Shown piece after piece: positions 10,489 through 11,828 of a stretch of 64,000 nucleotides of DNA. A program made the translations under genes and the position numbers. Origin of the DNA: Methanocaldococcus infernus ME (GTDB lineage: Archaea; AGJL01; Methanococci; Methanococcales; Methanocaldococcaceae). Every line of letters begins with the position of its first letter. Position 1 is the first letter of the stretch. Where the stretch lies: NCBI RefSeq assembly GCF_000092305.1, contig NC_014122.1:558001-622000 (forward strand), given 5' to 3'. The notes below the pieces were generated by a model. The model was not told the DNA's origin. It made no database searches and was given only the letters and a program-made list of their open reading frames with translations.

Positions 10489-10513
10489 TTATATATAAAA
10501 TTTAAAGATAAAG

Positions 10514-10522
10514 TTTATATAC
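10514..10522 (+). promoter_or_regulatory. TATA box of the binding-protein gene
   Basis: TTTATATAC on the plus strand, with transcription expected about 25 bases downstream, near 10543. This falls at the edge of the GGAA-N6-TTCC palindrome, the usual arrangement for a repressor-controlled archaeal promoter. Confidence 0.6.
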
Positions 10523-10544
10523 TACTATCCTATTAAAATATGAA

Positions 10545-10558
10545 GGAAATCCATTTCC
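10545..10558 (+). promoter_or_regulatory. Candidate NrpR nitrogen-repressor operator (GGAA-N6-TTCC)
   Basis: The sequence is GGAA, six bases (ATCCAT), TTCC; the symmetry extends to 7-bp arms (AGGAAAT / ATTTCCT, 10544-10559). GGAA-N6-TTCC is the operator recognised by the nitrogen repressor NrpR in methanococci (nif and glnA promoters of Methanococcus maripaludis). It overlaps the predicted start of transcription of the downstream transporter gene. The string match is seen directly; NrpR control is inferred. Confidence 0.65.
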
Positions 10559-10574
10559 TACTGAGGTGAGATGA

Positions 10575-11828
10575 ATGAAGAAGTTATTTGTTATTTTCCT
10601 CTCTCTTTTTATAGTTTTAGCAACTTTCCTATCAGGTTGTACAGGAACAGGAGAAAGTGGAGAGAAGGTTATTAAAGTTGGGGTTTTAACAGATCTCTCT
10701 GGAGATTTATCAACAGATGGTAGGCAAATAAATAATATATTGAAGATAGCTAAGGACAATGTTGAGCAATACTTAAAGGAGAAAGGCTTAAACTACAAAG
10801 TTGAGCTTTATGTTGAAGATACACAAACAAATCCATCCCTATGTTTACAGAAGGTACAAAACTTAAAGGCTCAGGGTTGTAACTTAATTATTGGTCCTTT
10901 ATCAAGTTCTGAAGTTAAGAACATAAAGAACTTTGTTATGTCAAATAAGTTAGTAATTATTTCCCCAAGTTCAACAGCTATCCCACAACTCTTAGGATTT
11001 GCCAGCCCAGAGGATAAGAAATATATCTTTAGAATAGTTCCTAATGACAACTTCCAAGGAAAGGCTATAGCTGGAGAGTTAAAAGATATGGGTATAAAAA
11101 ATGTTGTTGTCCTCTATAGAGATGATGCTTGGGGACAAGGATTAGAATCTGCAGCAGTTACAAACATGAAAAATTTAGGAATAAATGTTATAGCAGAGAT
11201 CAAATATCCAAGTCAGCCAACTCCAAGTGATTGGAGCCCATACATACAAAAGTTATTAGACTATACAAAAGGAAAAGATGCTAAGGATACTGGAATCTTA
11301 GCCATAGGCTTTGGAGAGTTAGCTACACTAATGTCACAAATTCCTGACAATTCACCACTCTTAAACTATAAGTGGTTTGGATCAGATGGATTTGCAATGA
11401 ATGAGAATATATTAAAGGTTGCTAAAGCCAAGGGAGAGAAGGTTGGGTTCTATTCAACAGTGTTCTATGGAAAAAGTAAAGAAGCTGAGAAGATTGTTGA
11501 AGAATATAGAAAGAGAGGATATGGAGAAGAAGTTGGACAATATGCCCTCTGTGCCTATGATGCCTTTATGTTAGGAGTTATCTCCTATGCAGAGATGTTA
11601 AAAGAGAAGGGAAGTTATGATCCAGACTTACTAAGTAAGTTAATAAAAGAGAATGCTGTTAAATACTCAAATGGAGACTTTGGCTTCAAACCAGTTACTG
11701 GTTACATAGAGTTTAATGAGTGGAATGATAGAGCTACAGGAGACTACGGAATCTATGCAATAACCAAAGATGGCTGGAAGTTAGTAGGAATTTGGCACTA
11801 TAAGGATGGTAAGATAGAGTGGCTCTAA
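10575..11828 (+). CDS. ABC transporter substrate-binding lipoprotein (LivJ/Peripla_BP_6 type)
   Basis: A 417-aa secreted binding protein. A signal peptide (KKLFVIFLSLFIVLATFLSG) ends in the lipobox LSGC, so Cys22 is probably the lipid anchor. The mature part begins with a threonine/glycine-rich linker and IKVGVLTDLSGDLSTDGRQI, the family start. It continues with LIIGPLSSSEVKNI, ISPSSTAIPQL and FRIVPNDNFQGKAIAGEL. Ligands of this family are branched-chain amino acids, amides or urea; which applies here is unknown. No permease or ATPase genes lie nearby. The start follows GAGGTGAG. A nitrogen-type operator sits upstream. Confidence 0.88.
   Translation: MKKLFVIFLSLFIVLATFLSGCTGTGESGEKVIKVGVLTDLSGDLSTDGRQINNILKIAKDNVEQYLKEKGLNYKVELYVEDTQTNPSLCLQKVQNLKAQGCNLIIGPLSSSEVKNIKNFVMSNKLVIISPSSTAIPQLLGFASPEDKKYIFRIVPNDNFQGKAIAGELKDMGIKNVVVLYRDDAWGQGLESAAVTNMKNLGINVIAEIKYPSQPTPSDWSPYIQKLLDYTKGKDAKDTGILAIGFGELATLMSQIPDNSPLLNYKWFGSDGFAMNENILKVAKAKGEKVGFYSTVFYGKSKEAEKIVEEYRKRGYGEEVGQYALCAYDAFMLGVISYAEMLKEKGSYDPDLLSKLIKENAVKYSNGDFGFKPVTGYIEFNEWNDRATGDYGIYAITKDGWKLVGIWHYKDGKIEWL

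Follow-up and report, generated by a model that had tools for sequence, protein, structure and literature searches.

Upstream of livJ, the gene for a LivJ-type amino-acid-binding lipoprotein of Methanocaldococcus infernus ME, we found an element, GGAAATCCATTTCC, that its sequence context marks as very probably an operator of the repressor NrpR; livJ would be repressed in ample nitrogen, and under limitation LivJ would feed an amino compound to the transporter LivGFHM. The livJ start is thus predicted to bear the same switch as the nitrogen-fixing genes of this organism, and since the element is also retained in relatives, organic nitrogen is probably scavenged once ammonia is exhausted. This makes livJ a new, conserved, predicted member of the known NrpR regulon. 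No earlier report of livJ in that regulon was found in the literature on LivJ and Methanocaldococcus or on NrpR regulons and amino acids.

The livJ promoter and its gene

The window is the whole stretch of DNA that was analysed, 64 kb of the 1,328,194 bp M. infernus genome (G000:558001-622000). The following features were located in it:

10514 to 10522, + strand: TATA box TTTATATAC of the livJ promoter (sequence)
10545 to 10558, + strand: predicted NrpR operator GGAAATCCATTTCC at the expected transcription start (motif search; conserved before orthologues)
10563 to 10569, + strand: probable ribosome-binding site GAGGTGA (sequence)
10575 to 11828, + strand: livJ, encoding a LivJ-type amino-acid-binding lipoprotein of 417 aa with the lipobox LSGC at residues 19-22 (ORF, domain, structure)

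The element reads GGAA-ATCCAT-TTCC and lies 22 bases 3' of the TATA box and 16 bases 5' of the livJ ATG (10575). A first-pass annotation of this DNA had described a TATA box at 10514-10522, a GGAA-N6-TTCC element at the predicted start site and a gene for a LivJ-type lipoprotein, and all three were borne out; the product combines a PF13458 domain (Peripla_BP_6 / LivJ type), the lipobox and a periplasmic-binding-protein fold. Most other sites in the M. infernus genome have an ATA-rich spacer, and ATCCAT differs from it.

Transporter and ligand of LivJ

The first-pass annotation had also remarked that livJ has no permease or ATPase gene beside it. This holds at the locus, but a complete set, livG, livF, livH and livM, forms an operon elsewhere (G000:395.2-398.7 kb; L066:2357-7187) that is convergent with glnA, which rules out livJ as an orphan without a transporter. 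The operon lies 170 kb from livJ. No other liv permease/ATPase set was found in the genome, in which livJ likewise encodes the single LivJ-type protein. In relatives, livJ heads the operon and directly precedes livG, livF, livH and livM. Identity between M. infernus livGFHM and the Methanocaldococcus genes immediately following livJ is approximately 71-87%, so that binding protein and transporter appear to have become separated in the M. infernus lineage. No perfect operator was found upstream of livGFHM in M. infernus; two perfect sites occur in the operon region, but one serves glnA and the other lies inside glnA, and both were rejected as a livGFHM operator.

Two further liv loci were recorded. 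A methanogen-like livJ-livJ-G-F-H-M operon (54-76% identity; L187:5977-11965) lies on a contig binned as the bacterium Thermodesulfatator, which may reflect either gene transfer between domains or mis-binning. In genome G006, which we take to be FS406-22, the livM reading frame is interrupted by stops and falls into two (G006:C1:665412-666346, L068), although both livJ genes are intact.

The structure model of LivJ was of high confidence, with a pLDDT of 90.6. Its closest solved structures were TM1135 LivK, LivJ-type proteins with Leu, Atu2422 with Ala, and the GABA-B and mGlu receptors, and the ligands of the top structural matches were Leu, Ala, Val, GABA or Glu. Our best guess based on the modelled fold is therefore that LivJ would bind an amino compound, urea or amides being possible too. 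Against NCBIfam PRK15404, used as a proxy for a branched-chain ligand, the livJ product scored 54.9 bits, the cut-off being 477.

The element could be a true NrpR operator and LivJ nevertheless no component of nitrogen uptake, if the protein bound a non-nitrogenous or signalling ligand or acted as an extracellular sensor without LivGFHM. The position of livJ apart from its transporter, the liv operon without an operator, the score far under the branched-chain family cut-off and a fold common to amino-acid receptors would all fit such a role. However, livG, livF, livH and livM come after livJ in relatives, and the related proteins of solved structure have amino acids as ligands, so that we consider this explanation improbable and favor uptake of an amino compound by LivJ together with LivGFHM.

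GGAA-N6-TTCC sites in the genome and across Methanococcales

The window contains two copies of GGAA-N6-TTCC, not significantly more than the 1.34 expected by chance, and the second copy (4172) lies inside an ORF. In the whole genome 71 copies were counted, all classed by one automated ORF rule; nine of them are intergenic, and each of these nine sits at most 120 bp upstream of a gene. The control palindrome AAGG-N6-CCTT occurred 42 times in the same genome, with four intergenic copies and none of the 42 upstream of a gene. Nine intergenic copies are a modest excess over the approximately 3.6 expected by chance from the composition of the whole genome, and the case for an operator therefore rests on the genes that are preceded and on conservation. 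Raw motif enrichment was dropped as evidence, as most copies are coding: the mere presence of the motif is uninformative, and its position is significant. The intergenic sites besides that of livJ were located as follows:

two sites before nifH
one site before a 210 aa gene followed by nifE (nif operon)
one site before an ammonium transporter gene (second amt)
one site between modA (modA operon) and a metallo-beta-lactamase gene
one site before glnA, common to a divergent PAPS-reductase-like gene
one site at G000:506164-506177 (L158:1165), 35 bp before the narK-nas nitrate operon
one site before glnK-amtB

The search for further sites, which the first-pass annotation had suggested as a check, thus returned eight companion intergenic sites that flank nitrogen genes throughout. 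Their functional coherence is complete, and the known NrpR regulon members nifH, glnA, glnK-amtB and modA bear the motif in M. infernus. Just downstream of nifE, two inverted ORFs of 72 and 64 aa that match in sequence stand, in a transposase-like arrangement, on either side of a 487 aa gene (L159:1187-5077).

The promoters of livJ were also compared in related species. A perfect site at most 100 bp from livJ was present in M. infernus (G000) and seven other genomes (G006, G013, G024, G025, G032, G033 and G035), and a one-mismatch site was found at a similar place in G008, G027, G028, G030 and G031; in G034 a site lies 190 bp upstream of livJ. The spacer changed between genomes though the element was kept, and the chance expectation is approximately 0.001-0.002 per promoter. 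In four related genomes (G027, G028, G030 and G031; L207-L210) the operator position of the livJ promoter is occupied by GGCA-N6-TTCC, GGCA being possibly a tolerated variant half-site. G006 and G013 each have two tandem livJ genes; in the copy that is nearest to the window gene, GGAAAATACTTTCC precedes the start of the match by 33-38 bases, and no site was found upstream of the other copy. No livJ was found in the seven genomes of genus g2, presumably Methanococcus.

In the protein tree, the operator-bearing livJ genes were placed in two clades, one with the window gene (support 87/90) and one of a second family (94/87), and no perfect site was found in a separate clade of ten Methanocaldococcus livJ paralogues (96/98), presumably including M. 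jannaschii (G003). The element is therefore kept before livJ orthologues across the order, and the paralogous clade is operator-free. In Methanocaldococcus, perfect livJ operators occur in genomes with a second nifH-type match (G000, G006 and G013). G024, G025 and G032, members of the second family, lack such a match yet bear the livJ operator, which rules out a strict tie between operator and nif and points to a link with nitrogen supply, not strictly with nitrogen fixation.

The palindrome could instead have arisen by chance, the promoter being AT-rich, and livJ expression could be indifferent to nitrogen, as may be the case for the operator-free paralogues. The frequency of the motif in the genome and the intergenic copies expected from composition would agree with this, but the low chance for this one promoter (approximately 0.0015), the recurrence of the element with changed spacers at the livJ start of seven other genomes and the nitrogen genes at all eight companion sites make it very unlikely. 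The divergent livJ spacer, the lack of a perfect operator before livGFHM, the distant site in G034 and the operator-free paralogous clade nonetheless count against an NrpR operator.

NrpR and the nitrogen regulon

The repressor itself is encoded: a single nrpR gene at approximately G000:681.3-682.9 kb specifies a winged helix (HTH_12) and two NRD1_2 domains. Directly upstream of nrpR, and overlapping it, lies a gene for an AA_permease_2 amino-acid permease (L080:2373-3455); because of this overlap, repressor and permease may form one operon. The presence of nrpR, the conserved element and the companion sites support the earlier suggestion of a nitrogen-limited uptake system, as far as sequence evidence can. 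In the mechanism that we infer, NrpR would occupy the livJ start region in ample nitrogen and block transcription; when nitrogen becomes limiting, a rise in 2-oxoglutarate would release NrpR, in the way described for the nif genes of Methanococcus, and allow the lipoprotein to be made. The substrate captured by LivJ, an amino acid or some related amino compound, would then be passed to LivGFHM.

M. infernus was reported to grow on N2 and nitrate, ammonium being consumed first (PMC13381448). The first-pass annotation had called its source an archaeon usually thought to use ammonia or N2, to which nitrate has to be added. The M. infernus narK-nas operon lacks fsr and matches the operon described in that study, published in 2026, in which NrpR goes unmentioned (PMC13381448). 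The site before narK-nas predicts that this operon is under NrpR control, which would be consistent with ammonium reportedly being used ahead of nitrate. During diazotrophy, M. thermolithotrophicus was reported to show increased levels of narK, mod and a gene for an ammonium transporter (PMC9765008).

Organic-nitrogen uptake thereby joins the predicted nitrogen-starvation response of hyperthermophilic methanogens, to which the use of ammonium, N2 and, since recently, nitrate is usually ascribed, and a complete, testable regulon is available for an organism already cultured under defined nitrogen regimes. More tentatively, and with some doubt on our part, NrpR control of LivJ-type organic-nitrogen uptake might date back to the ancestor of Methanococcales and not depend on nitrogen fixation. 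In M. infernus the receptor alone, and not the transporter core, would be switched, so that scavenging would be tuned via the binding protein, and most Methanocaldococcus would have kept an operator-free paralogue.

GGAAN6TTCC is the published NrpR operator, and its intergenic copies mark the regulon of M. maripaludis, which comprises nif, glnK-amtB, glnA, two molybdate transporters and a Na+-alanine symporter (PMC2723118); the nif operons of Methanocaldococcus sp. FS406-22, a strain with published genetic tools, were likewise reported with an NrpR operator (PMC8809328). M. infernus shares with M. maripaludis the operator, the repressor family and two operators before nifH (PMC2723118), and the target classes nif, glnA, glnK-amtB, molybdate transport and an amino-acid importer are common to both. 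However, the amino-acid importer is represented by an ABC-type LivJ binding protein in M. infernus and by the Na+-alanine symporter in M. maripaludis, and the M. infernus set includes narK-nas. Compared to LivJ-HMGF of E. coli, TM1135 and LivJ of S. pneumoniae, M. infernus LivJ has the same fold and family, and the same permease/ATPase set is encoded in the genome; it differs in its identity of approximately 20%, in the displacement of livJ from the operon and in its predicted control by nitrogen supply.
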